Part shown: one piece after another, positions 4,906-64,000 of the stretch
Layout of the letters: each line of letters opens with the position of its first letter
How positions within the stretch are numbered: the first letter of the stretch is position 1
DNA from: Nonomuraea sp. SYSU D8015
Lineage (GTDB): Bacteria; Actinomycetota; Actinomycetes; Streptosporangiales; Streptosporangiaceae
DNA length: 64,000 nucleotides
Reading direction: 5' to 3'
NCBI RefSeq assembly: GCF_008065375.1
Contig: NZ_MU084033.1
Location: forward strand, 62,471-126,470
Notes under the pieces: model-generated
The model's database searches: none
What the model saw: the letters and a program-made list of their open reading frames with translations, nothing else
What the model was told of the DNA's origin: nothing
Program-made: the position numbers and the translations under genes

Positions 4906-5241
4906 ATGGACCAGCTGGACGTCAACGTAGACGTCACCGACCAGTGCGCCGTGGTGCGCGTGCGCGGCGAGATCGATTCAGCGACCGCCGGGCTGCTCAG
5001 CAGCATGCTGGAAAGCATTCGGCGCCCCGGCGGTTGCCACGTTGAGATGGATCTCCACCAGGTGTCGTTCATGGACTGTTCCGGGCTGAGCGAGCTGCTC
5101 CGCGCCAAGCAGCACCTCCGGCGCCAGGGCGGGACCCTCAAGCTCGTCAACTGTTCACCCCAAGTCGACCAGCTGCTGGAGATGGCCGGTCTCGACCACC
5201 GGCTGGACGCGCCGTGGTATCGGCGGCACGATCGCGCCTAG
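4906..5241 (+). CDS. STAS domain anti-sigma-factor antagonist
   Basis: This 111-residue single STAS domain protein is of the SpoIIAA/RsbV type: a beta start (QCAVVRVRGEIDSATAG), then the phosphorylation loop MDCSGLSELL with a Ser followed by Gly-Leu as in the family, then KLVNCSPQVDQLLEMAGLD. Such proteins bind serine-kinase anti-sigma factors and release a SigB/SigF-type sigma factor when unphosphorylated. The start at 4906 has GAGGAG upstream; a longer reading from 4639 adds a non-homologous, low-complexity extension and is rejected. About 240 bp downstream lies a decayed SigB-type region-4 remnant, so this was probably once part of a partner-switching module. No RsbW-like kinase is visible in the window. 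Confidence 0.9.
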   Translation: MDQLDVNVDVTDQCAVVRVRGEIDSATAGLLSSMLESIRRPGGCHVEMDLHQVSFMDCSGLSELLRAKQHLRRQGGTLKLVNCSPQVDQLLEMAGLDHRLDAPWYRRHDRA

Positions 5242-5335
5242 CCAAGCCGGGTCCTCAGAGCGCGAAGGCGCTGCGGCGCGCCGATCAGCGCAAGGGCGAC
5301 CAGCGCTCAATGCCAGGAGGTGCAGGCCGCCGATA

Positions 5336-5694: not shown

Positions 5695-5802
5695 CGCCGA
5701 CACCGAGCTGGAGCACTTGCGGCGACGGGCCGAAGTGGCCGGAGTTCTCGGGTCCGGTCGCAGGAGGACGAAGGGCCGCCTGCCGTACAACTTGGAGTGT
5801 TC

Positions 5803-24794: not shown

Positions 24795-25045
24795 GACCAC
24801 CTCCACGCCAGGCGATCTGACCACAGTCATGCGCGTGTGCGCCATACGATTCACACTCGCGCGAGCCGCCAGATCTGGAAATGCGGGCAACCTTCGGCAG
24901 CCAGGCCGTGGCGACACACCGGCTGACGTTGACGTCCCAGCAGGTGGCAGGCCGCTATCACCGCGGCGCCACTGCCCGGGCCGCACACGGGCGACTACGT
25001 TCTGCAATCAGACGCAACGATGCGTAGTAACCGCTGGAGATGCTC

Positions 25046-25723
25046 ATGCTCTTCCCCCCACGGCGGCCGCTTCTGGCTGCGGCCGCCGCCGCGATCGTCG
25101 TCTGCAGCTCCCCTGTCCTGTCCGCCTCCGCCGCCAGCAGTGCGGCTTCCGCCGACACGGTGATGCTGTGGGACGCGGTCGCAGCCCTGCCGTCGGCCGG
25201 CGAGTACCGGGACGGCTACACCCGCACGTCGTTTCGCCACTGGATCGACAGCGACCGCGACGGCTGCACCACCCGCCAGGAGGTGCTGATCGCCGAGGCC
25301 GTCCAGCCGCCGCAGGTTGGCGCGGGCTGCACGATGAGCGGCGGCGTCTGGCATTCCTACTACGACGACGTGATCGTCACGGACGCCACCCGGCTGGACA
25401 TCGACCACATGGTGCCGCTGGCCGAAGCATGGGACTCGGGCGCGCACGCCTGGGCCGCCAACCAGCGCGAAGCGTACGCCAACGACCTGGACGAGCCGCG
25501 GGCCCTGGTGGCCGTGACCGCACGCACTAACAGGAGCAAGTCCGACCAAGACCCGGCCGAGTGGCTGCCGCCTGATCAGGCGGCTCACTGCCGGTACGTG
25601 GCCGACTGGCTCACGGTCAAACTGCGCTGGCGGCTCGCGGCCGACGCCGCTGAGAAGGACACCCTGGCCAGCCTCTCCACCGCGTGCCCCAACGAGCCGC
25701 TTACGGTGCCGGCCATGCCTTAG
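25046..25723 (+). CDS. Secreted HNH nuclease (DUF1524 family)
   Basis: The 225-residue protein begins with a Sec signal peptide (LLAAAAAAIVVCSSPVLSAS). Its body has the DUF1524/HNH pattern of actinobacterial secreted nucleases: YTRTSFRHWIDSDRDGCTTR, DIDHMVPLAEAWDSGAHAW with the catalytic DIDH, and TNRSKSDQDPAEWLPP. These proteins degrade extracellular DNA, perhaps for nutrient gain, as an antibacterial agent, or to limit entry of foreign DNA. I prefer the second ATG (25046) because GGAG lies six bases upstream; an ATG at 25040 overlaps that site. The protein looks intact. Confidence 0.85.
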   Translation: MLFPPRRPLLAAAAAAIVVCSSPVLSASAASSAASADTVMLWDAVAALPSAGEYRDGYTRTSFRHWIDSDRDGCTTRQEVLIAEAVQPPQVGAGCTMSGGVWHSYYDDVIVTDATRLDIDHMVPLAEAWDSGAHAWAANQREAYANDLDEPRALVAVTARTNRSKSDQDPAEWLPPDQAAHCRYVADWLTVKLRWRLAADAAEKDTLASLSTACPNEPLTVPAMP

Positions 25724-32810: not shown

Positions 32811-35800
32811 ATGCCGACTACCGCGTCTGGAAAAAGATCCCTCCTCAGCCGCGTGCGTGCCGCCATTACCCGCGGCCGTCGTCGAGGAGAGCACATCGCC
32901 GCTCAGCGAGCTCAGCAAGCCTACCGAGCCCGGGCAGGCGGTGATTTCGCGCTGCGCCGCATGTCCCACCAGCTCCAAGCCCAGATCACGTTGGCGCAGC
33001 CTGCCATCGGCGAGGTCTACAACGAGACCTGGTGGCAAGCAGCCACGCCTGAATGGATCGGCGGCGCCTGGCAGATCATTGTGTCCTGGGCCGCGATTGG
33101 CGAACCCACCGCCAGCGCCGCACTCGAGCACCTGCGCGAGCAGACCCACGCGCGCTACGGCGTGCGTATCACCCACGTCCGCATGCAACCGCGCGACGTG
33201 GTCGCGTTGCTCGCCCGCGCCTGGCCGACCCCTCCCATGCAGTCCGGTCAGCCCCAGGCCGCCGCAGAGCGTGCTGTCTACAGCTATGTGATTCGGGACC
33301 TGTGGCAGCGCACCATCGCCACGCAGGTCATCGGGACCAGCCCACGCGACGGCCTCGCGCCGCGGGAATTCGCCGCTGAGCGCATGGTTGCCTTCCACGA
33401 CCGGTTAAGCGAGCTGGCCGGCCCCCTTCCACCCGATCAACGCCTGCGCTACGTCATCGAAGTGCACCATGGTGACGATGTCACCGGCAGCCCCATACTT
33501 CGGCTGACCGATGGCCAGGCACGCAACCTTCACCACGCCGCCCAGACGCGCCGCGAGCAGATCCTCCAGGGCGCAGCCGCCTCAGCCGAGGAACGACGCG
33601 ACGCCCTCCTCGTCCAGCGCGGCACTCTCCGCGACCACATCGCGGCCCGCGAACACGGTGCTGCCGAACAGATCGGCACTCCCGACAGCGCCGACAAGGG
33701 CGACCTCACTCCGACCAAGGAGCGCCTGGACTATGTTGAGTTGCAGCTCGCGGCCGTAGAAGCCGAGCTTCGGGGCGAAGATCCCCAGCCCGTGTTCGTA
33801 GCGTCTCAACTCCTGCACACGCTCACTGACCAGTGGTGGCAGCAGGCACGCCCCGAACAGATCGGTGCCCTGTGGCAGCACGTGCAATCCTGGAGCCCGG
33901 GACAGGCCCGTGAGCGAATGCTGGAGTACCTGGCCAGCCAGGTACATGAGCACTACGGCGTCACCATCACGCCCACGATGCCCGGCCAGAACGTCACCGC
34001 CGCTCTGCGTACCGCCGGCCAAGCATCGGACGACGAGGGAGCCTCCGACGCCGCCCCTGCGGGCGTCAGTGCACCGGATCCCGACCAGCCGGCCACCCTC
34101 GACCAACGTCCGGCCACGACCCCACCCGACCCCGCCACGGCACAGCAGAGCGCAGCCGTGCCCGCCCCAAATGACCTTGACGAGCACCTGCTCCACACCG
34201 AAGGTCCAGTACAGGCCGATGGCGCGACACCCGCACCCGCCAGCGCCACAACCCCAGCACCGGCAGCGCCCTCGCCCCCCGCCCCTTCGCCGTCGCCGCC
34301 AACCCGAGACGCCGCTCTCGACGCAGCCAAGCGCCTCACAACCGTGCCCGGCCCCGAAACCGAGGTCCTCCCCGCAGACACGGCAATGTCCACGGCAGCG
34401 GCACCGCCACTCCTGGACCAGAAGCCGACGCCCGAGGCGCCCTCCGCCCCGCAACCTCCCCCAGCGCCCACCACCAGCCCGGAGGAACGCCCCACGGCGT
34501 CGTCGCCTCCCTCGATGCCAGCGACGCCTCCCCAGCCCGCCACACCTCCATCCCCTGAGAAGCCACGGCCCGCCCAGCCACAGCCGGCCCCTGCGCGCCC
34601 CTCCACACCGTTGGAGGCCCAGCGAACAGACACTCTGGACACCGAAGCTCCGCCATCCACCGCCGCCGTCCCGGCTTCCCCCTCGCCCAGATTGCGCAGC
34701 GATCCGTTCGAGAGCGTGGCCGCATGCCGCAACGCGCGGATCGCCCTAGCCCACCACATGCAGGCATGGCTGTTCACCACCACCAGCGAACAACTCGAAG
34801 AAGAAGAACAGGAACTGCGAGCGGCCACCGGACACGCGGTCACCAACGAGGGAGCCCGGATCAACCTGGCTTGGACCAGCAGCCAGGAACTTCCCCTGGA
34901 ATACAAGCAGGACGTGCGCGCGGCTCTCCACGCCTACACCGAACTCGCCGAAGCCGTGGCATCGGCTCGGCAACTGCTGGCCGCACGTCAAGCCTTCGCC
35001 CACGCTGATGACGAACTGACCCTGCACGTCGTGGCCAATCGAGCCACCGAATTCATTCAGCGCCTGCGCGCGACGGCCGCCTCCTTCTCCGGACCAGAAC
35101 AGCCGACAGACCCGCGTCGCGTCACCCGGCAAGAGTCGCAGACCACTCATATCGCCGCCCCGGATTCCGTGAACGTGCCACGGGCGTCATCACCGACGGC
35201 ATCCACCGCCCCACCCCAGCGAACTACCCCACCACCCGACCACGCGACCACCACCCCAACGCCTGCACCGCCAGCTCGGCCCCGATCTCACCCTGGCCCC
35301 ACACCCACCTCATCCACGCCCGCTTCTCCCGCCCGGACGCCTCCGGCGCAGCCCGCGCCCAAGCAGAGCCGACCGCACCCGGCACCCGAGCCGGGCCCCG
35401 CGGCACCGGAACGGCGCGCAGCCTCCGGCGGCCCGACCTCTCCCGCACCCGGCGCCCGGCAAACTACGGCATCCCCCACAACTCCGCCGAGCAGGTCGCC
35501 CGGCACCGGAGCCCCGGCCACGCCGCCCGCCACCGCCCCCGAGCGGCCGACGCCGGCCAGCCCAGCGCCCAGCGCTGCACAGCGACACGAAGCCCCCGAA
35601 CGACCAGCACCGGAAAAGCCCTCGCGGCCTTTCGCCGAGCCGGGGCCATCCACGCCCGCTTCTCCCGCCCGGACGCCCCCGGCGCAGCCCGCGCCCAAGC
35701 AGAGCCGACCGCACCCGGCACCCGAGCCGGGCCCCGCGGCACCGGAACGGCGCGCAGCCTCCGGCGGCCCGACCTCCCCTGCTTCCACTACGCCTGGCCC

Positions 35801-38800
35801 CACAGCGGCCCCGCCGCGCCTTCCGGCTGACCCACCCCGTGCCGTCCCTCCCACCGCGCCCCCTGTACCCTCGCCCGACGAGGCAGTCCCTACCAGTACA
35901 CCGCCCACCGCAGCCCCACAGGACGGCCGCTCCGCCCCCTCAGCATCACCAGATGTGGTCCGGCCACCCGCAACGGGTCCGGCCGTCGCGATACGGCCAC
36001 CAGAATCAGCGCCACCATCGTCGTCGTCGCCGTCACACTCCCCCGCCGCTGACCCTGCGGGAGGAGTTCCGGAGGCGGCCACCAGCTCCGGCGACACTCC
36101 CGCGGTGGTGCCGCACGCGCCGACCGAGCCCGCACCCCAGGCCGAGGTCGACTACGCTCCCCTCAACACGCAGGACATCCCACGCGTGCTGAGTGAGCTG
36201 GACGCCGCCGCGCTGGCTACCTTGGTGCGGTCGCTGGGCAACCCCCGCCATCTGGATGATCTGCGCGCGCGTGGCCGACGGCGCGACACACGGACGCAAC
36301 CTCCTGCCCCCAGGGGCACCCCCGAAGTGGTGGTCACGGGGCTACGCGTGCAGCTGCCCGACGGGGAACACGGGCCCGTCGAGGGCGCCTGGAGCGACCT
36401 GGTGAACTGGCTCCATGTCATCTATGACACGCCGGTCAGTGAACTGCTGCTCCACGCCTTTGACACGCTGGATGCCTATCGCAGTGGCCGCGAGGTCCTC
36501 AGGCTGACCGGGCAAGCCGATCGCGGCCTGCTGATCGAACAGGAACTGGCGGCGATCGCCCGGCAGGCGGCCCGCGAGCTCATGGACGAGGCCGTCGACC
36601 GGTATGCCCATCCGCGCCGCTATCTCCACGCGGCAGCCGACGACGGCAGCAGCGAACAGGACGACGGCCTGTTCACCTTGAACGACGTGCCCACCTCTGC
36701 CGCCTCGGCCAAGGCCCGCATTCAGCAAGGACTGGGCCGGCCGAAACAGCTTGCCGAGGCCGCGCAGGCTCGCATCCAACAGAGTTTGCTGAGAGTAAAA
36801 CGACTCGCCGAGGCAGCGCCCCCGCGTGACGGAAGCGGACACCGCCACCCGGCCACCGCCCTGCGTCCGGGCTGGCTCATCAGTGATGTCCAGCAGAACC
36901 CATCTCGCCTGGTGCTCACCCGTGAGGCACACACTGGCCCGCAGGGGCTCGTCCTGACCGGCGTGAATCCTGACGCCAACACCGACGACGCCCAGCAATG
37001 GATCTATCCCGACGGTCGCGGTCGCCCGCCGGCCTTCTGGGTCTTGCGCCGCCCCCAGGCGCTGGCCGACCTCGCCGTCTCCGCGCCTGCACCCTCGCCC
37101 GATCTGCCTGCGCTGCAGCCGGACGAGCCCACCGCTGACCGGGCCGGCTTCACCGATCTTGCGGCCGTGCTGGCCTACCTGACCGCCTATCCTCCGGAGA
37201 CCTTCCCACCGCCGCGTGAACAGGAGAGCGCCGACGCCTACCAGCGGCGCGCGCTGCAGCGGCGCGCCTTCATCGACCAGGTCATCAGCGCCCACGATCT
37301 GGGCCTGAGCCGTGACGGTCACCTGCTGGTCTTCAGCAGTGAGGGGCAGTACCACATCGCGCTGGCCCGGACCCTGGTGCTGATCGAGGACCAGCTGGTG
37401 GATGGCCACGATGGTCAGCAGGCGCGTGACTTGGCCGACTGGATCGAACGCCACTGCCTCGATCCCCAAGGGCGCCCCTTTCCCTGGCAATCTCCCCATG
37501 CCCGCGAACACAGCCTGCAGTGGTGTTCGGCCGAGGGACGCAGCCTTCGGGAAGAGATCCAGCACCAGATCACGGTGTTCGACCGCGCGTACGGCATCAA
37601 CAGCCTCGCCGTCCGTCTCGACGACCAAAACCGGGTGGATGAACACCACCTGCGCCATGCCCGTCCGCGTGGCCGCATCACCGTTGATCGCATCGTCACC
37701 GGTGACACCATCCGCGTCGTGGAACGCGATGGCATCCATCAGGGCAAGGCCGTCGGACCCGTCACTCCGCGCCCCGGCCAGCCAGGCGAATACGAGCTCC
37801 ATCTGCGGGTCGGCGACGAGGTCAAACCCATCCCCATCGATCCCTCCTCCGCCACGCTCTATCGCCTGGCCGACGACCTGCACTCCGGCGATACCCCGAC
37901 AGCATCCCCGGACAGCGGCGAACGCGACCCCCACCCCGCCGACGCCGACGCTCCCACCACCGCCGGTGCACCTACGCCCCCCGGCCCACCGCCCGGCACC
38001 GCAGACCGTCTCCCGGCCCTCCAACCGCTGCCGAACGACGATGCCCTCACCGCGCTCCCCGGTGTGGAACTGCCCAGCACGCCTCCCCCCGAGGTCGCGC
38101 CGCACACCACCGCGCCCACGGGCGGCACGCCCGCATCCTCACCTTCGAGCGAGACGCTCAATCGCGCCCCCCTGCCCCTCGCAGCGAGCCCTGCCACGGC
38201 GGCGCAACCGGGGCCGCCGACGGCCGTCGACGAACCGCAGGAGGCCTCGCACACCACGCCTACTGAAGCGTCCGAGGTCACGCTGCGCTCCCTGGGCTTC
38301 GACGAGCTGGGCAACCCGCTGGCCTGGACCCCGCACGGACTTGCCCATCCCCGGCCCTTGGCCGAGCTGGCCGGACAGTATGTCCGCATCAATGTCGGCG
38401 GCGGACTGACCCTTGCAGGCCTGCTGATCCAGCGAGACGACGGCTGGCAGGTCATGGGTGAGCGCTCGGACGGCAAGGCCGACCTGCACCACCTCGACAC
38501 CGACGACGCACGGCACGCCGTGGCCGAAGCATGCCCGCAGCCGCAGCGCGCCGACCCTGTCCAGGAGGAGCCACCCTCGCCGCCCGGACTCACCCGGCAT
38601 CGCCGAGACGTCCTGATCGCGTTCATGCACGCGCGTGTGGCCGACTTCGCCGACACCCACGACCCCGCCGACCACATTGCCGAGCTCCTGCAGGCCACCG
38701 ATGTGGAATGGGAATGGCTGGGCGCCTATCTCGATCTGCATCCCGAGCTGCTGACCCTCGGCGAGGACGAACGGCAGGCCTACACCCGGCGCTGGGAGCA

Positions 38801-41800
38801 ACTGGCCGCCCGGGCCGCGCACACAGGCAGCCAGCCCGCCCTGCCGGCCGAGCCGGCACAGCACACCACCGCTCCCTCCACGCAGCAGCCACCCCCGGCC
38901 GCTGCGGTGGGCGAGCCTGCTCAGTCCCAAACCGCCGAGCCGCCCTTTGCGGCCGTCACCCCCGAAGACGTCGTCTTCGCGCTGCAAGGATTGGCACCCA
39001 GCTTCTTCCCGGCGCTCGTGGCCGCCCTCGATGACGCCGACGCCATGACCGAGCTCACCAAGCAGCCACGCGGCTTTTGTGACCCGCACAACGAAGGCGC
39101 CACCTGGGTCGAGGTCACCGTCCACGGACTGTCCATCGACCGGCACACCCCGCAAGGCCGTCGCGCGGGCTTGGTCTCCTGGCAGGACGTCCGCCGCCAT
39201 GCGATCCGGCTCACCCCCGTAGAACGAAACCTGCTGGCCGACGCCCGCACGCTGCATGAGCGCTACCACGAGCGCCAGACGATGCTCGCCTTCGAAACCG
39301 TCGGCCGCCGGCATCTGTGGTGTCATGCGCTGAGCGAGCTGGACGCCATCATGGCCGCCGCGCGCGATGAGGTGCTGTATCCCTTCCCCGCCGCACCAGC
39401 CGGGGCGACCAACGACCCAAACCAGCCACGCCGTCCCCCCTTCACATGGAATGACCTGCAGGTTCGGCTGTCGCTACTCTCTGCGGCGTTGCCCGCCGAA
39501 ATGATCGTCATCAAGGGAGCGGACGACCTTCAGCCGGGTGATGCGCTGTCGCTCAACTCCCAGGCACCTGAGGTGTTCGTCCTGCAGGAACCGCCCAGAA
39601 AGGGGCCCAAGAACCTCCGGATCACCGGTCGGCTCTTGCAGGAAGGCATCCTGGGCGAGCCCACCACGACGAAGATCCGTGTCGACCCCAACGATCACTA
39701 CCGGGTCGCGCAGTTGCCGATCGAACCGGACGAGCGCATCGCGGACTCCCCCGTCCACCTCACCCCCCTGCCCGACACCGACACCGCGACCACCACCGCC
39801 CTCGAGCCGACCGGCCCGCGCTTCGTCACCCGCCAAGACGCGGTGGACCATCTACGGCGCGGCGGCGACAAGCACGACACGCACCCCTACAGCGGCCCAC
39901 ATGACATGGGCGCACGCGATGACTGGCATCTGGCCGCGGGCGGCTCCTTCATCATCGCGCCCAGTCCGGCCGGCAAGCGGGACTCCTGGTGCATTGCCGA
40001 CACCAGCCGCGGAGAGTTCTACTACGGCCTGGCCGTGCCCAGCGCGGCTTCGGCCGAAGCTTTCGCCTGGCGGCTCAAAGCACTGGAGAACAGCACCGCG
40101 CTCGGCTTTGCCTGGGACGATCCCCACCGCCCCGACCTGCCGAACGGCCTGCTGCGCGACGTCCACCGCGAGGTGCTGGCCTCCCTCGACACCGCCGGAC
40201 CGCTTTCGGCGCAGCCCTCCGAAGCGGCGCCGCCAGCCGCCGCCACCCCCAACCGCGCACCCACCGACCCGGCCCCGACACACAGCACGGCTCCCACGGC
40301 GCCGACGCCACCCCCTTCCGGCGAACCGGCGGCAGGCGAGACCACGCCCACCGCCCTCTCCGACCCAGCGCAAAAACAAGCATCCGCCCCACCTGCCACG
40401 GCCCCGCCGCGTGCGCGGGTGGACTGGATTCAGTACGAGTGGGACGAACGGCGAACTGGGCTGCGCGCGGTGCGCACCTCACTGCCTGACACCCGCGGCT
40501 GGGACCACCATCTGACCCCCTGGCTGGACCCAGGCAACCGGCCCGGCGTCAGCGTATGCCGACTCTACGTCGAAGGACGCGTCGTCGTGCTGGCACGTCA
40601 GCGTTCGGAGGATGCCGACAGCAGACGGAATCTGCGCGTCATGGCCTATCTCGGCGGCGCCGTGCCGGCGGCACAGCCAACCGGACGAGTAGCGCTGGCG
40701 CAAGCGGCGGCCTGGGCCGCGAACCCGCCGACGAGCGCCGATCCCGTTGAGTGGCCCGAGCTGATGACCGGCTTCGTCGACCAGTTGGAAGCACTGGAAC
40801 AGCGGGCCCGTACCGGCGCTCCCCAACTGGCGGCCCTCGTCGCTGCCGCGCTGCATCACCCCAATACCGAACTGGCCGTGATCTCCCAGGACGACCCGAT
40901 CCCCCTGCTGTGGGGGCTGCAGGACATCCTCGGCTGGGTACTGGGACACGCGCCGCAGACCTTCTCAACCTACGAGAGCGACGATCACCAGCGAGGCCCC
41001 GAGATCGTCTTCCTCCGGCAGAGGCCCCCCCTGTCCTCACGCGCACCCCGACGTCAGCGCGTGGACCTTCACGCGCCCGGGCCCGCCGCGCCGTACGACG
41101 AGCTCGCCGCGCTCATCGTGGATGCGTACGCGCGCGGATCACTGCCCGAGGTGATCAGACGCCTCGAGCTCAACGACGACATGCCAGCGGGCACGCGCCT
41201 CGACCTGCTCCAGACGGTGCTGTCGGCGCCAGCACCGCCGGCACCAGCCCCCGCCGCAACGCCACAACCCCGGCGGTCGAAGCCGCCCGCAGCGGAGCCA
41301 CCCGCCCCAACCACCCACGAACTCGGCCAGGACCCGGCCGAGCCGACTGCGGCGCCCACGACCTCACACGAGCCGAGCCAGCGCCCACCCGACGGCGAGG
41401 GCCACCACGACATCCCGACACCAGGCCACCGCGATCCCGGCACTCCGGCACAACGCACCAAGACCGAACAGAACAACCAGCCGAGCGTCGAATCGCCGCC
41501 GCAAACAGCGGCACGTCCACCCGCACGCCCCACTCCCACAAGTCCGGCCGAGCAAACTAAAGACGAGCCGCCCGAACGCGCACCCGCCACGCTTCCCCCC
41601 TCGCCCACGCTGCCGGGTGGTGAAGCCGCGGCCGCCGTCATCGCAGCCGTCCACCCCGACCACACCGGCGCCGCCACGGCGCAGGACCTCCAGGCTCTGA
41701 CCGCACTGGTCGCCGAGGCCCTGACCGACGCGTCCCTGCACCGGGCCGCCGCCGAACTCGACAAAGCCGACTTCACCTGGCGCATTGTGTCGGCATGGCT

Positions 41801-44800
41801 GGTGCGGCACATGCGCCACGACACCAACCTGTCCGAAAAGGTGCGCGACCTCTACTTCGGACGCTTGCAGGGCCCGCTGGCCCAGACCTTGGCCACCGCC
41901 CTGCGCGCGTCCGCCACCGATCCCAGCGCTGCCTCGGCACAGCCGGCCGACGAGGAGGCCCTGGCTTCGCTCCCGCAGCCCCGCGATGCGCACGAGGCAC
42001 GGCAAGACCTCATCCTGCGTGAGCTGCACGCCAAAGGCGTCACCTTCGAGGTGCACTACCGGCGGCAGGGCCACACCACGCTGGACAAACTCAGCTACCG
42101 GGGCCAGGACAACATCCCACTCGCTCTGGACGAAGCAGCGGCCCGCTATCTGCCCCAGCTGCGCATCCGTCCCCGCCCGCTCACCGACGACGATGTCCTC
42201 TCCGCCCTGCGCGGTCTCGACGCCACCTTCTTCGCCGCGCTGGCCTGCAACATCGACAACTCGACTGCCCTGCGCAAGCTGACCAAAGGACCGCACGCCA
42301 CTACCACGAGCACCCCGGACGACCACATCAAAGTGGACGTCACCAGCAAGGGCCTGAGCATCGACATCCACACCTTCGCCGGCACCCGCACCGGCACGAT
42401 CGCGTGGGACAAACTCGGCGAGCGCTGGATCAAGCCCGCCCTCACCGACGACCACCGGGCCTTGCTGGCCGACGCGGCTCGGGCCAAAGCACTGCTCGGC
42501 GATCGATTCGGCATGCTCGCTTTCGACGTCATCGGCAAACGCGGCCACTGGCACCAGGCTCACAACGAGCTCGACGCCACGATCGAAGCCGTCCGTGACG
42601 ATCTCCTACAAGCGGGCGCCCAGTCCTCGCCCCTGGGCAACGCCACACTCACCCAGCCCGGCGACACCCTCTTCGATGTCGAGCCCGCATCGCCGGTCTC
42701 CAGCCTCGATCTTGGGGCGCTTCACGCCCGCGTACGCCAGTTGGCTCAGGTCCTGCCCGCCGAGTGGATGCAGACGAAGACGGCCGAAGCTCTGCGAGCG
42801 GGCGATGCCCTGGGCAACCTCAAGATCCGGCCTGTGGTGTTCGTCCTGGCACAGCCGCCCCAAGCTTTGGTCGGTGAACTACGCATCCACGGGCGCGAGC
42901 TGACCAACGGTGTTCTGGGCGAACCGGTCACCCGCGCCATCCCGCGCCACGCCAAGAACACCTACCTTGTCGTCCAGCTGCCGATCGACCCCGACCAGCA
43001 CATCGGGCCCGTCACCGAGGCCCCGTCAGATGAGCAAGCCGCCAGCGCGCCCGATCACACACCGGACGAGGGCCAGGCGGCGCCCGACACCGCACCCGAC
43101 ACCGCTCTCGCCCGCTTGCCCGGTGACGCTGCTGCGCCCGCGACCGCCCTCGACACGCCCGCTGCGCCCCAGCCCCCGCCTTTCCCGGCCGCGCACACAA
43201 CCGCCGCGTCTCCGACCCCGGCCGCGCCGACGGCGGCCACCCGCCCCACACCAGCTACCACGGCGGGCCAACCGACCACCGACCTCGGCGAAAGCACCAT
43301 CCAAAGGCCCCGCTTCACCACCGAGGACCAGGTACGCAACCACCTGCGCAGCGGCGGAGACCTGATCACTGTGCCCGAACAGCAGGCGGCGGCCGCCCTG
43401 GCCGAGCGCGACGACTGGCACCTCGTCGCCGGCGGCTCCTTCCTCATTGTCCCCGCAGCCTCCTCCGGCTGGTGGATCGCCCACCCGGGCAGCGGCTTCA
43501 TCTGGCGGGCCTTCACCCTGCCCGACCAGGACGCCGCCGAAGCGCTCGCCTGGCAGCTGACCCGTGCCCGTATGGGGGGCCAGGTCATCGACTGGGACGA
43601 CCCCGCCCTCTCCGCGCGCATCACCGCCGTGCACCCCCACGTCCACGAGGCATATCAAACCGTCCGCGCCCTCGCCGGCCAAGACAGCACCCCCCAGCCC
43701 GCCCCCGCCTCACCGGCATCCATGACCGGCGCCAGCGCGGCCCCATCCGATCACCCCACAGCCCCACCCGCCGACTCGCACGACGGGCAGGACGCCGACC
43801 CGCCTCACGCCGAACTAGGACCGGCGCCTCCGTCCACTCCCGCCGATGACGCGGCCGCGCAGCCCCGCCCCGTGGAGCCGCCACCGGACACCACCGACCT
43901 GCTGCCCCAGCCGGACATCTTCCCCGAGCCCATCGCCGAGCAGATCCTCAGCGCCGCCGCTGCCTACGAGCAGGCGCTGAGAGGCGACGATGAGATGACC
44001 ATGCTCACCAGCTGGGCGGCCTACCGCGATCTCCTGGACGAGCACCAACGCGCCGCTGAGATCGGCGGACCTATCGACACCGAAACGAAACGGCTCACCC
44101 GAATCGGATCACGCCTGCGCGACGCCTGGGACCACGACCATGCCGACATTCGACGGCAGAACCAGGCCCGGCGCGACCGCATCAGCCAAGCCCGAGCACA
44201 AGCCACCCGCCTCGTCGACGACGGCGATCTCCAGGCCGGGCTGGCGCTCATCGATGAAGCCGAGCAGCAGGACCCCGACGCCCGCGACTGGGACGCGCTG
44301 CGCGCCGAGCTACGCGAACTCTGGATCGACCCGACCCCGCTGCCCACCACCGACGACGGCACCCCGCCATCACCCGAAGGGATGAGCCCGGCACAGCGCG
44401 CCCGACTGGTCGCCGCGATCGAGCAGACGGCCGCCCGCTACACCGTCACCGGCGACCCCGGCCGGTACATCGCCGAGGTCCACGGCCAGCACGGCTACCA
44501 AGGCGAGGCGGGCCAAATCGAAAAGGACTGGATCGACAGCTATCTGGCAGCACACCCCGAAGTGCTCGCCTTCACCCCCAAAGACCTCAAACGCCGCGTA
44601 CGCCAGGCCGCACGCGAACAACAGGCTCGCACGCAGACCGCACGAGAGCTGGTGACCGAGGCCAAACGCCAGTACGACGCGGGAGCCTTCGATCAGGCAC
44701 GTCAGCTGATCGATCAGGCTGAGCAGGCCGACCCCTTGATCGAGGACTGGGCGCACATCCGCCAGACCATCGCCAACGGCGAGGCGGCGAGCGCACCGGC

Positions 44801-47800
44801 GTCCGATAGCAGCCCCAGCGACGCCGGCGCATCGGTGCTGCCCGGCGCCGTATCCCCGACAGGCACGGCCACGCCCGTGCCGGAATCCGGTGCGGCCAGC
44901 GCCACGCAAGCCCCGCAACAGCCTGAACCGCCTGAGCCGCCCGAGCCGCCTACGCCCGCCGAGGACGGACAGGACACGGCGATTGCGCCGGCCACGCTGG
45001 CCACGCCCGCATCACTCGACGGTCAAGCTCACGATCCAGCTGCGGCCCGGCCGCGGCAACCGCTGCCTCCCAGCCCCAGCTACATGGATGACATCGGCCC
45101 GGCCCCGCGGCCAGAGGCGGACCCGCTTCCCGCCGATGCAGGGCGCTGGAGCCAGAAAATCCGCATCCGGGAGGCGGACGGGTTGCTGACCGTGTCCGGC
45201 ACCAGCCAAGACGATCCACCGGTGATCCGGCGCACCCTGCACGACAACCAGTTCACGTTCCGGAAAGGCGAACGCGGCAAGCGACGCGGACACTGGGAGT
45301 ACATCGGATCCCGGCACCGGCGGCAAACCTCCCTCGAAGCCGTGCGCAGCGTCCTCATCGACCTGGATCGCGAGGAAGCGGCCCGTTTCCAGCCCACCGA
45401 GCAACAGCTGAAGATCGCCGAAGCCGTCGACACGGGCGACGATGTCGTCGTCCAGGCTTTGGCCGGCACTGGCAAGACCTCCACCTTGCGCTGGCTGGCT
45501 CGCCGGATGACGGGCAAAGCCATCCTCTACACCGCCTTCAACAAATCCGTCATCAAAGAGGCCATTCGCGACAACGTCTTCGGCCCGCACGTCAGCTGCC
45601 TGACCTTCCACGGCATGGCCTACCGCTCGCTGCTCGGTGGCCGCTACAGCGCCAAGGTGCAAAAGGCCACCAACTGGGACGGAGCCTTCTACAACAACCA
45701 GATCGCCGCTGAACTGCGCATCACGCGGCCCTTCAAACTCCGCGACCGCGACATCTCGCCCGAACAGTTGGCCGGCTACGCGATGGCGGCCGTGAAAAAG
45801 TTCCGGGAAAGCGCCGACCCCGCCATCACCCAGGCTCACCTCCCGGACGAGGCGTTCGCCCACCCCAAACTGGCCGAACGCATCCTGAGCTACGCCCAAG
45901 CCGCCTGGGAGAACATCTGCGACCCCGAAGGGCGCGTGAAGTTCACGCCCGACGACTACGTCAAGATCTGGGCCTTGGGCCACCCCCGCCTGCACTTCGA
46001 CGTGATCTTCTTTGACGAAGCGCAAGACATCAGCCCGGTCATGGCCAAGGTCATCCGTGACCAGCAAGCCCAGATAGTCGTCGTCGGCGACTCCAACCAG
46101 GCCATCAACGAGTTCCGCGGCGCCGTCGACGCGCTGATCGATTGGCCCAGTCCCCACGTTCGTCCGCTGACGCTGTCCTTCCGTTTCGGGCCGGCCGTGG
46201 CCGAGGCCGGCAACCAGATCCTGGCGCTACTGGGCTCGCCACACCGCCTGATCGGCAATCCCGCCCTCGACACCCAGCTGTGTGACATCGACGAACCCGA
46301 CGCCATCGTGTGCCGCACCAACGCTGGCGCAGTGGCCGCCGTCTTCGACGCCCTGGGCAAGGGCAAACGCGTCGCCATGGTCGGCGGCGGAGACGAGATC
46401 AAAGACATCGCCCAAGCCGCCGAAGATCTGCTGGAAGGCCGCCGCACCAAGCACCCCGAGCTCGCCGCCTTCCGCGACTGGGATGAAGTCCGCGAATACG
46501 CCGAGAAGCCCGAAGCGCGCAACCTGCAGATGTTCGTCCGGCTCGTCGAGAAGTTCGGTCCCGCCAGCTTGAGCGAGATGGTCGACAAGCTCGTCGATGA
46601 GGAGGAACGCAACCCCGCCCGCAAGGCGCAGGTGTTCGTCATGACCGCCCACAAATCCAAGGGCGGCCAATGGCCCAAGGTCGTCATCTGGGGCGACTTC
46701 ACCGCCAAACCCAAGATCGACGAGAAGACCGGCAAGGAAGTCCTCCCCGACGCCCAGGAAATGCGCCTGGCCTACGTCGCGCTCACCCGCGCCCAGCAGC
46801 AACTCTCCGTCGGCTCCCTCGGCTGGTATCTCACCTACCAACCGCCCCCCGGCGATGAACTCGCCCCCACCGCCAAAACGGGAACCCAGATCGCGCCGAC
46901 GCCTGCCGACGCGCACATTCACGGAGCCGCCACAACCGTTCCGCAAGAGGCAGGGCAGGACGACTTCGAACTAACCCATCCACGACCGGGCGTGCTGCCC
47001 GCCGAAAAGGAGCGCGAGGTCGTCCAGGCCCTCGACACCTACACCACGGCGGTGCAGCAAGGAGACGACAGCGCGGCCGCCAACGCGCTGGGACACCTGA
47101 CACGCCAGCTGATCGGCTTCGAGGTCGATCCGGACGATGAGACGAGCCTGCTCCAAGCCGCTGAGCTCAACCGCCTGCTGACCGCCGTCTACCTGCGCGA
47201 GCCCGCACAGGCCGCGAAGATCGCGGTGGAGACCGCCACGGCGCTCCGCTTGCCCGGCGATGTCGTGGACGCGCTGCGGATACTGGAGCGCAACGGCATC
47301 GGCGTTGATGAGCGGGCCCTGTATGCCGGATTGTGCCAGGTGGACAGGCTCGACTACGCCGGACTGGACCAGGCGGGCTGGCGCATGCTGGCCAGGGCAG
47401 ACGCAGGCGAACGCACCCCAGATGTCGCGGTGGTCGTACTCGGTCTCGGATGGCGCCGCCGCGGCCGCATTCAGCCATGGAGCAACAGCTGGCCCGGCAT
47501 CGAGCTCGCTCGATCTCTGCCCGAGAACCCGCAGCGCGCACATGAAGCGTGGCACCTGGACCCGCAAGCACTCGATGCCGCCATCGCCTACACCGACGGC
47601 AGAGCGAACGCACCCGATGCCTTCTCGCGCACGGACACCATGTCGTGGCTGGAGGCCTTGGACGCGCTGTGCCGCATCCAAGAGCGCCGCGCCTACACCG
47701 TCACCGCCGACACCGTCACCCAGGCCATGAACGCGCTGGACATCGTCTACGCACCGCTCATGCGCGAACCTCTGGCAGGCATGAGCGACGACAACCTGAT

Positions 47801-53800: not shown

Positions 53801-56800
53801 GGGACCGGACATACTGGTGCCAGACGGCAGCGGAGGTGTCGATGATGGCGATGAACCAGTACGGAGCACAGGCCAAGGCGCACTGGGAGAAGCACCTGCC
53901 GGAGCTCCTAGCGACACTGCCCGATCCGCAGGAGTTCTTCACGGACCTGGGCGAGAAAGCGGAGCAGGAGGAACAGGACCGTCTGGAGGAGATGCGGGCG
54001 AACCGGGCGACGACCAGCAGCTTCATGACCAACCTGGGCCTGGCCAACAACGACCGGATGACGGTGCGCGACGACATCATCCGGTCGATGATCTTGGTGG
54101 ACCCGCAGGACTCGGAAGCGATCCAGGCGCTGCTGAGCTAGTCACCTTCCGCCCCACCGGCCAGGACGACCTCGCGCCGGCGGGACCGAGGGCCAAGCTC
54201 CAGGCCAACCTGGAGGCCTTGACCGTGCTGAACCGGCTGGAGGCCGAGCAGCGGCCAGCCACGCCCGAGGAACAGCAGATCCTGGCGCGCTGGTCAGGAT
54301 TCGGCTCCCTGGCGGAGAAGGTGTTCAAGGACCGCGACCAGGCATATGCCGCCGCCCGTGAACAACTGCAGGACCTGCTCGGCGATCGTGACGATCGCGC
54401 GTTGCGGCGCAGCACCCAGAACACGCACTACACCGACGCCGCTCTGGTGCAGCAGATCTGGCGCGCCGTCCAAGCGATGGGCTTCGAGGGCGGACTGGTC
54501 CTCGAACCCGGCTGCGGCAGCGGCAACTTCATCGGCTTCGCCCATCCCGAGGCGCAGGTGGTCGGCATCGAGCGCGAGCCATTCGCCGCGGCGATCGCCT
54601 CCCACCTGTATCCCGACGCGGTCATCCGCACCGAAAGCTTCGCCGACACCCGGATGCCTGACGACAGCTTCGACCTGGCCATCGGCAACGTACCCTTCGG
54701 CAAAGCGGCCCCCACCGACCCACTGCACAACAGCCAACGCCACGCCATCCACAACTACTTCATCATCAAAGCCCTCCACCTGGTGCGACCGGGCGGCCTG
54801 CTCGCCTTCATCACCAGCCGCTACACGATGGACGGCACCGAGCAAGGACCCATGGCCCGCCAGGAAATCGCCGAGCAGGCCGACCTCGTCGGCGCCATCC
54901 GACTCCCCAACGGCGCCCATGAGCGAGCCGCAGGCACCGACGTCGTCACCGACCTGATCATCCTGCGGCGGCGCGAACCCGACCGCGAACCCCACCACCT
55001 CCTCTGGCAAGAGGCCCGCAAAGTCGAACTCGACGGCCACGAGGAACACGTCAACGAATACTTCCTGCACCACCCCGAAATGGTGCTCGGCACCCTCGGC
55101 ACCGGCCAAGGCCCCAACCGCGACGGGCAACTCGTGGTCCGGCCCCCGCAGGACCTGCACGCCGAACTGGCACGCGCCCTGGACGAGGTGGCCGAACACG
55201 CCCGGCGCTACGACCTCACCCACACCCCGCGCGAGGCCAATGACCAGCCCGCCCTGGACACTTTCCGCATCAACCCGCATGAGCAGAACTTCGAAGGCTT
55301 CATCACCGCCACCCCCGAAGGCGGGTTCACCCGCATCGTCAACGGCTTCGCAGAGCCCTACGACATCCCCAAGACCCAGATCCGCGAGATCCGCGACCTG
55401 CTCAAGCTCCGTGACGTGCTGCTGTCCCTCCTGACGGCCGAGTCCTCCTCCGCAGAAGACAGCCCAGCCCTGGAACGGCTACGCCAGGAACTCAACCGCC
55501 GCTACGACGCCTACCTGCGCACCTACGGACCACTCAACCGCCACAACATCGGCAAACGCAAGAACAAAAAGGGCGAAGAGCGCGAATACAAGATCCGCCC
55601 ACCCGTGATCAGGAGGTTCCTGCAAGACCCGTTCGGCATCACCGTCCAAGCACTGGAGCACTACGACCCCGACAGCGAGCAGGTCTCCAAGACCGACATC
55701 TTCACCCAGCGCGTCGTCAAACCCCGCTCCCGGCCCGAGCACGCTGAAACGCCCGAAGACGCGCTCGCGCTATGCCTCGACGCCCACGCCGAGGTGCGAC
55801 TGAGCGAGATCGCCGACCTACTCGGCCTGAGCAGCCCCGAACAAGCCCGCCAAGCGCTCGGCAACCTGGTCTATGAGGACCCGATCGAAGACCGGCTCGT
55901 GCCAGCGGGCGAATACCTGGCCGGCAACGTCCGCGTCAAACTGCAGCAGGCCCAATCGGCCGCCGAGATCGACCCCACCTACCAGGCCAACGTCGAGGCC
56001 TTGACCGCCGTACAACCGGAGGACCTCGGCGCCGCCGAAATCGAAGCCCGCCTCGGCGCGATCTTCGTCGCCCCCGAGTACGTGCAGCAGTTCCTGCGCG
56101 AAACCCTGCAAGACGACTCCATCAAAGTCACCCGTGACCGCGGCGTGTGGAAGGTCAAGGGCAGCGACCGCAACAGCGTCCTGGCCACCGAGGTCTACGG
56201 CACCCCCCGCGTCAACGCCCTGGACCTCGCCCGCAAGCTCCTCAACCTGCGCACCATCGAGGTACGCGACGAACGGGACGAGTCCGACGGCGGCGGCACC
56301 GTGGTCAACTTCGAGCAGACCGAAGCAGCCCAGGCCAAAGCTGAGGAACTCAACGCCCGCTTCGGCGAGTGGGTATGGGAGGACACCGAGCGCGCCGACG
56401 AAATCGCGCGACTGTACAACTGGCACCACAACGCCATCGTGCTGCGCAGCTACGACGACGTCACACTCAGCACCCCCGGTCTCAACGAAGCGATCACCCT
56501 GCATCCGCACCAGCACGCGGCCGTGGCCCGCATGATCTACGAGCCGGCCGCCGGCCTGTTCCACGACATGGGCGCCGGGAAAACGCTAGAAGAAATCGTC
56601 GGTGTCATGGAACTCAAACGGCTCGGACTCGTCAACAAGCCGGTCATCGTCGTCAAAAACCACCTCCTCGACCAATTCGCCAAAGAATTCCTTTGGGCCT
56701 ATCCGCAGGCCAAAATCCTCTGCGGAGACAACGACGACCTCTCCGACCGAGGCGGCGTCAAAGGCGAACGCCAGCGAGAGTGGATCAGCAGATGCGCCAC

Positions 56801-59800
56801 CGGCAACTGGGACTGCGTCATCCTGACGCAAAATGCCTTCAAACGCATCGCCATGACCGAAGACGCACGCACCGACTACCTGTCCTGGGTGCGTGAAATG
56901 TTCAACGCCGCCATCGAAGAATGGGAAGGCGTCGAAGAATACAAGGTCAAGGAAGCCGAGCAAGTCCTCGAACGCTTCGAGGAAAAGATCAAAGATCAGA
57001 CCAGTGACTCCAAACATCGCGGATTGACCTGGGAGAACACCGGCCTCGACTACATCGTGATCGACGAATCGCAAGACTACAACAACCTCTGGACACCATC
57101 CAACGTGGATGGCATGTCGATCGATGGATCCGATCGCGCTGCCGATCTGGAAATGAAGCTCCGATACACCCGAGCACACCATGGGAAACGAGTCGGCACC
57201 TTCGCGACCGGCACCGACGTCACCAATAAGATCACCCAGATCTATGTCATCCACCGATATCTGCGCCCCGACCTACTGGAAGCGCAAGGCTTCGACACCG
57301 CCGACTCGTGGTTGGCCACCTACGCCGCCCCGCAGGTCCGTTTCGAACTCAAGGCGAACGGCTCTTACCAGCCCAAGGTCCGGGTAACGCAACTGGTCAA
57401 TGTCCCTGAACTGCTGCTCACTTACCACAGCTTCGCCGACATCAAAAGTTACGACGACCTGGGACTCTGGCGTCCAGCCATCGTGGGCGGCAAACCGCAA
57501 ATCATCCTCGTCCCGCGGTCGGCCGAACTCGCCGACTTCCAGGACGTCCTCGCCGAGCGCTATGAAGCCGCCAAACAAGGGCGGCGGGAAAAGGGCATGG
57601 ACACGGTTGTGGCGGTCATTGGCGACGGCATCAACGCCGCCCAGGACGTGCGCCTCGTGGGCCTGTCCACTGACGAACAACAGAAAGTCGATTACGCCGC
57701 CGATGAAATCTACAAGGACTGGCTGGCGCACAAAGACGACGTCTACCTCGATGACAATGGAGAACCCGACCCCGTCAAGGGCAGCCTGTTTCTAGTATTC
57801 TGCAACATCGGCGTCCCGAACAGCACCGGCAAATTCAGCATCTATGAGGAGCTGCGCACACTTCTCATCCAGCGAGGTATAGATCCGACTCTCATTCGTT
57901 TCATCCACGAAGCGACGGATCGCCGCAAAAAGAGCGAGATGTTCGCCGCCTGCAATGCCGGTCACGTGCATATCCTGATCGGGAGTACTGAACGGATGGG
58001 CGTCGGCACTAACGTCCAAAAGAGAGTCGCTGGGCTCTACAAATTCCACGGACACTGGCGCCCCGACTATCACGACCAAGAGGACGCCCGCGGCCGCCGT
58101 CAGGGCAACCAAAACGAGGAGATCTTCATCAAGGTCTTCCGCACCCAGAAGTCGTACGAGCCTTTCCGTGACCAAGCATGTGAACGGAAGGCGAACTTCC
58201 TGCGCATGCTGAAGAAGCGCGACCCCCGGGTGCGAATTTTGGAGATCCCAGACGATGACACGCTGCGCTTCGCTGCGTTCGCCTCAGCCGGCGCCGACGA
58301 CCCCCGACTGATGGAAAAAGCGGAACTCGAGGCGACCGTCGCGCAGCTCAAGCGTCGCCGTGGCCAGCATTCCCGCAAGCTGAACGATCTCAAGCTCACC
58401 ATCCGCCGGCGCGAACGGGACATCCAGGACACAGTCGATGATATTTCCAGGCTGGACGCCGCACTGGAGCTGTGGACTCCCACCAGAGGCGACGCCTTCG
58501 CCATGGTGGTGGACGGCCATACGCACACCAAGAGAACCGACGCCGCCGATCATCTGCGTGCCTTTATCGCCACTACCCTCAAGCGCATCCCCCGCGGCGA
58601 CAACCTCGAGCACGTCCCAGTCGGAGAGCTCGGTGGGTTCCGCCTCACGGCGAACTTCTATCCGACATATCAAAAATCGATCTGGTTCAGCTTCCCGGAC
58701 GCTGTGGGCGTGAAGACAGTTTCGGTGGATCATCGTGACCTCGGCGACGGGATCGGCCTCGTCCGCACGCTCGAAAATCACTTAGCTGCCATGCCTGAGC
58801 TGCGCAACGACTGGCAACAAGACATCGAACGGGCCCGCCGAGACATCGAGCAAGCCACTGCCCTGCTCGACAAGCCGTTCCGGGAAGCGGACTTGCTGAA
58901 CGACCTGGAACAGCGCATCAAGGAGATCAACGACGAACTGAAAAGAGACAACCCGGGTACCCCCCCGGCTACGGCCTCGGCACCCAGCGGGTCTGGCGGG
59001 TCCCGAGAAGGCCGCGACCTGGCCCGGCAGCAGGCACAGATTACCGCGCTAGGCTTCAACGCCCCCGACGCCGACGCCTTCGCCGACTGGTACAGCCAGA
59101 CCTACGGCGGTAAGCCCGCGACCGCCCAACCTTTGATCAGTCAGACCTATTACGAGGAATGGCTTCCGCAGCAGGGCCCCCACCACCCGCTGCGCACCAG
59201 CGTGCCGAGCACCTTCCCGCCCATCGCCTTGACCGCACCAGGCCAAAGCCCACCCGGCCAGGCCGCTCCCCCTTCAGCAGGCACGTCCGCCGCGGCCGCA
59301 GCGCAGCCAGCCGAGACCGAAACGACGCCACCGAGCCTGCCCGGGCCCATTCTCGACGATGTGCGGGCGCGGCTCCTGGCCCTGTCCTTGGCCTCTGCCG
59401 ATGTCGCGGCCTGGGCCCATGCCAACCATGAGGACAACTTCGCCTGGGCCTTCCGCGGATGGCTCACCGAACAGGCAGCTGAGCTGGCCGCCTCCCTCCA
59501 GGACGCGGGAGCCTTCACCGATCAGGACCGCACGCTCATCGACGAACTACTCAGCGCGCGATCGGCGACGATGACGCGGCTGCTGGACCAGTTGACCCCT
59601 CAAATGTTCCGCGCGCACCGCGCCGGCCAGGACATCCAGGCCGCTCACGGCGAGCCGACGTGGCTGGTGTACCGGCTGACCAACCTGTCCGACGGCACGC
59701 CGGTACAGGACCTGGCCGGCGATGAGCTGTTCAGCATGCTGCACGAAGCGATCGCGGCGAAGAACGAGCTCATCCATGTCCGCGACGATGGCGCCATCGA

Positions 59801-62800
59801 GATGGTCTCGATCAGATCCGGTCACGACCTCGACGGGGGTGACTACCTGGCCACGCCCATGACACCCGAGGACTCCTGGCAGTGGCTGACACAGCACCCG
59901 CAGGATCTCGCCGGTCTCGCCCAGAACCGCTCCTGGCAAACCACTCAAGTCAGGGGCCAGCAACAGCTCGTCAAGGACGCGATCGCCCACACGCTGGCCC
60001 ACGAGGAAAGCCGCGTACCCGATTCCCGGGCGCAGCTTGAGAACTGGCTGACCTGGCAAGCCAGCGTGGGCAATCCCGAGGTGCACGAGGAGGTTCGGCA
60101 GCAGCGCGAGTCCTACGAGGCCTTCCGCGACAACTTCGACGCGCTCGCCGCCGTCCAGATCCATCACGCCCTGACCCGCGGTGTTGAGCCATCCGTCCTT
60201 CGGGTCACCACCCATGAGACCTTCGCCGCGGCATGCCAGGCCGCCACCACCGCGGCCGGTGAACTTGACCAACGGCAGTACGTGTGGCGCGCGGGAGACG
60301 TCTACGTGGCAGCCGACATGCTGCCCGCCGCCAACCACGTCTCCGTCACATCATCTGGCGAATGGGCCCAACACCTGGACGGCGTTACCGTAGTCCTGCC
60401 CGAGCCACCCCGCACCGAACCAGGGCGGCCAGCCGTGGAAAGCCCATGGCCGGCCTTCAGCGGCCTCACCGGCTATCTGAGCGCCGACCACCGGCCCGAA
60501 TCCATCGCCCACGCCCAACAACAGTTGGCCCAGGCGTACGTGGCCTTCATCGCCGCCTGCCTGGATGCCGGCCTCGACCACCATCCCAACAGCGCCGAGC
60601 TCCACCCGCTGACCGTACAGATCCGGCTCCACATCTACGCCCTCACCCAGACCGACAACGAGCCTGCCACCGCCGCCCAACACCTGATGCACGTTCACCA
60701 GGCCGCCACCGACGTAGGTGACCTGGCCGACAGCGACCTGCGCACCGCCGCCTACCTGCTGATGGCCGCCGCCGAGACCCACGGCGCCCGACTCCAGCCT
60801 GCAGCCACCGGTGAGCCTGCTCCGAGCGTCACACCCTTGGACCTGGAGGCGGCACAAGCCGCACTGTCGAACCCGAGCCCGTTCCTGACCGGCACTGAAC
60901 ATCAGCAGGTCCAGGCACAACTGCTGGAGTCGATCAGGTCCTCATGGCCGATCGTCGGCCGGACCGGGTCCAACAATCTCACGACACAGCTCGTCCGGCG
61001 CCTGCACGCCGTGCTGACCACCGAAGAAGTGGCCGAAGCGCGTCCGGTCGAGCGCATGATCGGGCAGTGGAACCGGATCGTAGCCGACACCCTGATGGCG
61101 GCCCGCCATTGCGATGACCCAGAACAACGGTTCGCACTGACAGCCGTAGCGGGAGAAGCGGTCGCCTATCACCGGCGGCTGCGAGCCTACGCCCAGGCTG
61201 CGGAGCGTCGTGCCACTCCCTACACCGATGCTGCCGCCTGGCAAGCAGGGCTACGGCGCCTGGAGCACGCCTGGGAAACGTGGCGGTCCCACAGCCGAGA
61301 TGAGAACACCACACGTCACCGGCAGGTCGAGGGCGAGCATCATCAGCCCATGCGGGACTTCGCCGATGCCGCTCGCCGGGCCGCGTCGAGCGCCTGGGAC
61401 CGTCTGCGCCACGACAGCCACAGCGTCGAGGCGGCCTACGCCTTCGCCAGCACGACCTACGATCTGGCCTTAACCCTCGAGACCGAGGCGAGCGGCAACA
61501 CCGACGACGTCGCGGCCGAGGTCGTCGGCGATCTGATTGTTCTTGCACATCTCCACCACGCCCGCATCGTGGCCACCACACCCGAGTCGGCCCCAGACAG
61601 CCCGCTCTTCTCGCCACCTGCGGCCTCGCGTGCCCTCACAGCGACCACATCGCCCGGCCCCACCGGCATCCCTCCCGGTGACGCAGAACCGTACGCCTCC
61701 CTGACGGACATGACCGAGGCGGTGCAGGCGCTGCGGCAGGCATTCCTGGACGCCCTCCCACCGGCCAACCAATGGAGCGACGCCATCGCGCACGCCTCGA
61801 CGGCGCTGCACGACATGACCGTCGTCCCGGACCACGAACGCGGACTTTACGAGGCCACCGGGAAATGGAGCGCGCTGGCCGAAAGCGTCACCAAGGCGCA
61901 ACAAGGCGCAGGCGCGGAGGACCGAGCGCGGCTGGAAACGCTCGCCCGCGACGCGACCCGGCACGCGAGCCGGCTCAACGCGTGGTACGCGCGAGCCGAG
62001 CACCAAGTCGCGCCCTACACCTCCGTGCAACAGATCCTCCAGGACGACCTGGAGCTGTTGCGCCTGTACCGCGCCTGGACGACCACCCCCACAGCCCAGC
62101 AGGACCACGACGACCTCACCCGCATGGTCAGTCGCCAGCGCCAGGGAGCGGTTTCCCGGCGCCGAGACGACGGACGCGGCCTTAGCGACAGGCAGCGACG
62201 GATAATCGCGCTGGCGGATGCCTCACAAGCGCTGATCATGATGCTCGGCAGCGCGGACTACCGCAGCAGCGCCGACCGCGAGGCGCTCGGGCAACTCGCC
62301 GACGCCGCCGCCCGGCACGTCGCTCGCCTGGCGGCCTCGGCGGGCGATGAGTCCCTCTCGACGCGCCTCCAAGAAGCCGTGCAGGCCGACCCCCACTATC
62401 ACGACCGCCTGCGGGCAGAACGCGTCGCAGCCGCACGAGGCCAGGACATCCCCCACACCGACGCCGAGCCCTCGCGGCACGGCGCGCGCGCCGCCTTGGC
62501 CGAGACCATGTTCGCGATCCGGGCCCCCAACGCAACGGACGATCCGCAGCTGGCGACGCACCTGTTCGACCAGCTGTACGACGACGTCGCCACCGGCACG
62601 CTCACCCACCTCACCCTGGCCGCCGACGGAACGATCACCTACACCGCAGGCACGGACGCCGGCGCCTCGCCGATCGTCCTGAGGCCGCTCTCCCTTGAGC
62701 AAGCCCGCGCGTGGGCCGCCAGCCACCCCGTCGCGGCCCCGCCCCAGCCGCGCCATCCGGACCTTGTGGCCTGCTGCAACCAGATCGTCGACCACGCTTG

Positions 62801-64000: not shown

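Follow-up and report, generated by a model that had tools for sequence, protein, structure and literature searches.

Does a reading frame that runs without a stop to the edge of a 64,000-base stretch of actinomycete DNA (the window, in what follows) encode one very large protein, and what is to be made of the odd-looking interval at 53.75-54.14 kb, where such a protein might seem to fall into two? The window corresponds to positions 62471-126470 of a 207,808-base contig of Nonomuraea sp. SYSU D8015, whose genome measures 12.43 Mb. A first-pass annotation, made from the letters alone, had proposed a single gene of at least 10,396 codons starting at ATG 32811, with a helicase/methylase product above 1 MDa that would be exceptional for its size. 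Judged by its sequence, the giant gene is real and of an already known kind; what looks new is a nested gene at the seam, rather than the size of the giant or its set of domains. Taken as a whole, the locus is read here, with some confidence, as an 11,342-codon gene for a predicted UvrD/DarB-like methylase/SNF2 protein, likely concerned with protection of a conjugative element, together with a nested TnpV-like gene that is predicted to be translated as well.

The giant frame and its parts

Between ATG 32811 and the end of the window there are no in-frame stops and no N, so the proposed frame is borne out. Read beyond the window along the contig, it closes at a stop ending at window coordinate 66,839, which corresponds to a protein of ~1.24 MDa (the computed mass, 1,237,711 Da, is for the 11,372 aa counted from an alternative ATG at 32721). 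Of the two candidate starts, ATG 32811 is better supported because a GGAG lies upstream, as the first-pass annotation had held, and because it agrees with the start of a relative, the predicted protein P0083. The preference for G/C-ending codons over most of the length also stands: position-3 GC is 0.82 on either side of the seam. There are two exceptions, namely a weak frame signal at ~34.2-36.5 kb, in Pro/Ala/Thr-rich linkers, and the interval 53.85-54.14 kb, which is Gly/Asp-rich in the giant frame and has a GC content by codon position of 0.91/0.64/0.36. Pfam and NCBIfam searches returned no polyketide synthase (PKS) or non-ribosomal peptide synthetase (NRPS) domain, as had been expected. 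The motifs placed earlier at about 45.5, 46.0, 54.5, 56.6 and 58.1 kb were all recovered in the same frame. The parts of the gene are as follows.

32811-64000 in the window and onward to a stop ending at 66,839, forward strand: giant open frame of 11,342 codons
32940-33971, forward strand: N-terminal domain (aa 44-387), common to G120, G182 and P0083
37146-53519, forward strand: stretch that holds the seven R2 repeat modules (aa 1446-1562, 2337-2438, 3501-3598, 5209-5320, 5776-5874, 6032-6142 and 6807-6903)
45120-46904, forward strand: UvrD-like helicase with intact Walker A and DEAQD motifs (aa 4104-4698)
54147-55010, forward strand: adenine-methylase region (aa 7113-7400) with EPGCGSG and NVPF; Pfam match below cut-off, tblastn homology to DarB-like proteins
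56448-59180, forward strand: SNF2-type ATPase region (aa 7880-8790) with GAGKT and DESQD; Pfam match below cut-off

Pfam recognizes the UvrD helicase above its cut-off (aa 4197-4667), with the Walker A motif at aa 4216 (45.46 kb) and DEAQD at aa 4402 (46.01 kb). The methylase (~aa 7230-7358) and SNF2 (~aa 7916-7968) matches fall below cut-off, and their motifs lie in frame: EPGCGSG at aa 7232 (54.5 kb) and NVPF for the former, GAGKT at aa 7921 (56.57 kb) and DESQD at aa 8085 (57.1 kb) for the latter, with a GVGTN stretch at ~58.0 kb in the same register. This composition is that of the polyvalent proteins of phages and conjugative elements described by Iyer et al. (2017; PMC5512222): several unrelated activities are predicted for one polypeptide (UvrD above cut-off, methylase and SNF2 by in-frame motifs), and the methylase-SNF2 dyad is recognized by homology and motifs, the window's own Pfam scores for it lying below cut-off. 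By its published description, the prototype OJH72069.1, encoded on a Streptomyces viridifaciens plasmid, has 12,242 aa and contains both UvrD and SNF2 helicases. Neither exceptional size, as claimed earlier, nor a size record, which we considered and rejected, therefore applies to the giant protein. The two share UvrD, SNF2 and adenine-methylase parts within one huge actinomycete protein that has many modules of unknown role. Unlike the prototype as published, the giant has its UvrD part before the methylase, an N-terminal domain of its own and a nested, out-of-frame TnpV-like gene.

Much of the remaining length is modular, with three copies of a repeat R1 and seven of R2. The R2 module (window 43311-43604 and six more copies) is ~100 aa long, ends in DW..P and was counted 180 times in 72 of the 131 large proteins compared. 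Its AlphaFold model has a pLDDT of 95.6; a structure search of the PDB gave a best match at E 0.84 and a sequence search gave none, and on this basis R2 looks like an undescribed domain. For aa 797-4117 of the giant, no protein was found at E 0.001 in the length range searched. A module at window 40419-41219 (aa 2537-2803) shares 50% identity with a portion of a 932-codon frame that Nonomuraea gerenzanensis (L013) carries on its main replicon; among the other giant proteins compared it has no match. Its sequence would fit a recently captured host domain, which we regard as possible.

A nested gene at the seam and its conservation

The odd look of 53.75-54.14 kb, for which the first-pass annotation had found no reason, is explained by a second gene, which lies there in the +1 frame.

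53832-53836, forward strand: GGAGG, which likely serves the nested gene as its ribosome-binding site
53842-54141, forward strand: TnpV-like gene nested in the giant gene and shifted to the +1 frame; three candidate ATG starts (53842, 53845 and 53851), TAG stop

Counted from ATG 53851 the gene has 96 codons and its product begins MNQYG, while the GGAGG stands five bases before the in-frame ATG 53842. GC by codon position in the nested frame is 0.64/0.36/0.91. Should both products be made, what had looked like a seam in the giant becomes an explained feature. An overlap between the stop of the small gene and a GTG start for the methylase was considered and rejected, since the sequence reads TAGTC. 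A homologous small frame occupies the corresponding place in Sphaerisporangium, G182, Amycolatopsis, Micromonospora and Pseudonocardia, and the window protein is 52% identical to the Sphaerisporangium copy over its length. The small protein is modelled as five helices (pLDDT 91); a fold search gave a best PDB match at E 4.5, and a sequence search of the PDB gave no match. It has no match at E 1 to Pfam TnpV (PF14198; curated cut-off 27 bits), hence the name TnpV-like. A PF14198 search of the organism's own genome likewise gave no hit at E 1, which agrees with the window copy lying outside that model.

The arrangement was compared across 87 loci, namely the best 80 of 353 from a methylase-profile search of a genome collection plus seven others; they are mostly actinobacterial, and many are related, so that counts over them are not independent. 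All 87 carry a small gene of the TnpV-like family ahead of the methylase core (by 1-2 kb in a few), and 84 carry it in the same relative frame. The methylase frame stays open through the small gene, that is, the small gene is nested, in 79; the eight loci without nesting are KIT, STR, L049, L065, L093, L099, L106 and L108. The arrangement in G052 is tandem. PF14198 is matched at E 0.1 or better by 27 of 62 aligned small proteins (best 1.2e-5). In many loci the methylase frame already has a start of the form MARRR..GQLSL..LW before it reaches the small gene (65/87 by a loose pattern); this conserved start is in the same frame, and the long frame therefore appears to be coding to either side of the overlap.

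GC-rich genes have few stops in their -1 frame, so its openness was tested against chance, using 33 clusters of small genes with less than 55% identity between clusters. Of these, 30 lack any stop in the -1 frame, where 11.4 would be expected if their own synonymous codons are permuted, 7.2 from methylase codon usage and 9.8 from equal-length windows of methylase genes (an earlier, less complete count gave 43/44 open against 9.6 expected). In total there are 9 stops against 40.5 and 62.3 expected, all nine of them in STR, KIT and L093, loci without nesting; a control frame shows no depletion (159 observed, 143.5 expected). The 33 clusters include L049 and L108, in which the -1 frame is not the methylase frame, and 28/31 are open without both. 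The corresponding tail probabilities (2e-16 and 1e-22) count related clusters as though they were independent; we do not use them as p-values. Openness of both frames, with the host frame kept clear of stops beyond chance, is what an overlapping gene pair would show. Moreover, Shine-Dalgarno (SD)-like 4-mers precede 77 of the 87 nested starts and SD-like 5-mers 52, compared with 12.9% and 2.6% of 1,294 same-frame control starts inside the methylase-helicase, a comparison that somewhat favours the nested gene because only there was an alternative upstream start permitted.

Nesting extends to plasmids of low GC content. Helicase genes of Enterococcus faecalis (36% GC; 2,266 codons) and Listeria welshimeri (38%; 2,016 codons) contain +1 nested frames that score 29.6 and 28.7 bits against Pfam TnpV, above its cut-off of 27. 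These frames are absent from the gene table, which is incomplete by its own description. We rejected the length of a nested frame as evidence by itself, frames as long occurring in 51 and 65 of 1,000 synonymous shuffles; in the low-GC plasmids it is thus the family match that counts. Across 26 plasmid records the nested protein of Enterococcus is conserved at 98-100%. Nesting is also seen in five gut-derived fragments that are filed as phage (L126, L127, L133, L134 and L135; 41-53% GC), where the methylase lies in the spanning frame; in two more (L132, L139) the long frame that spans the small gene has no methylase match at that place. On the other hand, the family has stand-alone members: in the TnpV genes L136, L137 and L138 the -1 frame is only 13-28 codons long. 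Scans of viral contigs, one locus each, yielded two stand-alone genes and one that lies under a 1,231-codon frame in which no methylase was matched. The window gene thus resembles TnpV (PF14198) through its low-GC counterparts, which pass the cut-off, and differs in that the window copy has no match and that TnpV genes can stand alone. The beta- and alphaproteobacterial relatives examined (L129, L130) had no nested TnpV-like frame, and a nested +1 frame of 198 codons in Gordonia (L124) had no match to the TnpV-like models. A helicase gene on a Campylobacter jejuni plasmid (L128; 29% GC) contains a 166-codon +1 frame at 4243-4740 that neither TnpV-like model matches.

The nearest precedent found is a phage methylase gene containing an out-of-frame HNH endonuclease (ShiLan domain; PMC11855218). 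By its published description, there too the second gene sits out of frame within a methylase gene and the host frame stays open; in contrast to that phage homing insertion, the nested protein here is TnpV-like, lies upstream of the methylase core and occurs in Actinomycetota and Bacillota. The words TnpV and overlap are absent from the main text of PMC5512222, and searches of the open-access literature of PubMed Central showed no report of a TnpV-like/methylase overlap. TnpV-like nesting is likely an overlooked, widely conserved overlapping gene pair, and likely one that crosses phyla, translation of both frames being predicted from sequence.

Relatives of the giant gene and alternative readings

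The methylase-SNF2 module is matched in 2,016 of 72,556 plasmid records, in 110 of 50,697 phage records (some annotated DarB-like) and in 24 of 297 genomes of the order, our organism included. A protein search over a range of roughly 5,500-17,500 aa matched 507 proteins, the best 120 of which have 5,546-7,994 aa, and actinobacterial plasmids carry related annotated single genes of 5,177 to 8,819 codons. Frames above 10,000 codons were found in two other genomes, G120 (10,600) and G182 (10,402). Both match the window at the N-terminal domain, the methylase-SNF2 module and the C-terminal part, their middle modules being repeated or rearranged. UvrD precedes the methylase in G182 and P0083, as in the window; a UvrD match was not found in G120. 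The N-terminal domain occurs in 6/341 genomes of the family, again counting our organism. In G284 it is in pieces, in a stretch that also holds 98 N; this same-genus copy (L036; G284:C13, ~15.9-24.1 kb) has the domain near the methylase, split over several frames. Two streptomycete plasmids, L012 (6209-19081) and L015 (26209-37542), carry a second giant gene, annotated as toprim domain-containing, beside the UvrD-methylase giant.

These relatives bear on whether the window holds one giant gene or two adjacent ones, the first running to ~53.75 kb and the second from ~54.1 kb, with the frame between them open by chance. Over one such small gene the chance of an open -1 frame is about 0.2-0.6, and in some relatives the protein does begin at the methylase. 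The N-terminal domain, moreover, is a separate upstream frame in G052, whose parts form tandem frames, and in part in the same-genus G675. It is nevertheless fused in G120, G182 and P0083, so the parts are not always separate genes, and a check on whether they are gives a divided answer. Against two genes, no stop closes the upstream part in the window, G120 or G182, where its frame also agrees with that of the methylase, and P0083, predicted as one protein, has its parts in the same order. We therefore regard two adjacent genes as unlikely. The first-pass proposal of one gene for one very large helicase/methylase protein has support at the sequence level, since the N-terminal domain, middle modules and methylase share one frame in two further genomes and in P0083.

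The small frame might, alternatively, be the relic of a gene that is no longer translated, and the weak family match of the window copy would suit this. Such a relic should hardly have kept an intact frame with a position-3 GC of 0.91 and a GGAGG upstream, nor its identity to the Sphaerisporangium copy and its presence across the 87 loci, and we think a relic improbable. Ribosomal frameshifting, which would join the small frame to the large protein, could draw on two frames that are open and overlapping; the SD-like sequences before most nested starts speak against it, and the long frame alone links the upstream part to the methylase with no shift, which makes frameshifting very improbable. 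That the long frame is an artefact of assembly can scarcely be credited, for although the genome is a draft of 71 contigs, there is no N in the window or the two following pieces, the coding signal is consistent, and related frames of more than 10,000 codons stand in two other assemblies.

Proposed role, history and significance

The mobile-element setting proposed for the giant gene draws on relatives that lie on plasmids and on a TrwC relaxase gene found 0.8 kb downstream of it on the other strand. No type IV secretion gene was seen among the ten downstream proteins scanned; the ends of the element were not found, and the stretches scanned for tRNA contained none. At 67,660-103,000 (extended window coordinates; L002, L003) lies a gene cluster, mostly on the minus strand, whose products include the TrwC relaxase, a DUF4007 protein and two methylases, one N6 and one C5. 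On the upstream side, about 7 kb away from the giant gene, window 25040-25720 encodes a protein with a GmrSD C-terminal (HNH-type) domain.

DarB is a component of the particle and protects DNA in cis. The methylase-SNF2 part of the giant aligns with DarB-like phage proteins at ~30-33% identity over 86-95% of 1,624 aa; the giant protein is far larger than these. For polyvalent proteins, Iyer et al. propose that the methylase-SNF2 dyad marks or protects entering DNA and that UvrD acts on transferred single strands (PMC5512222). Applied to the window, the giant would be made as one chain, SNF2 would move the methylase along double-stranded DNA, marking it against restriction, and UvrD would work on the transferred single strand; the protein would then likely shield the DNA of the conjugative element on entry into a new cell. 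From the same message, internal initiation after the GGAGG at 53832 would yield the small helical protein, probably a partner or regulator of the methylase-helicase, as suggested by the small gene staying beside the methylase-helicase gene. Double use would cost the large protein little, since the shared stretch reads as a Gly/Asp-rich linker in the giant.

A history in three steps is likely. Genes for the N-terminal domain, the tnpV-like protein and the methylase-helicase would have stood in tandem, the state in G052; the tnpV-like gene would then have come to lie inside the methylase frame, as in G675; and finally the upstream gene would have been fused through it, as in the window, G120 and G182.

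Long overlaps between genes on the same strand are considered rare in bacteria, and annotation readily loses them. The gene tables examined follow one of two courses: the small gene is retained and the helicase begins only behind it, as on an Arthrobacter plasmid with the small gene labelled TnpV, or the helicase is given in full and the small gene is lacking. We also lean, on balance, towards the view that this overlap is among the most widely kept in bacteria, that it spans Actinomycetota and Bacillota, perhaps also Campylobacterota, and that a single message yields the two proteins as a fixed working pair, which has here been swallowed into a giant gene. If both products are made, many methylase-helicase records would start at the wrong codon and some TnpV genes would be missing, and the pair would offer a cross-phylum test case for dual coding.
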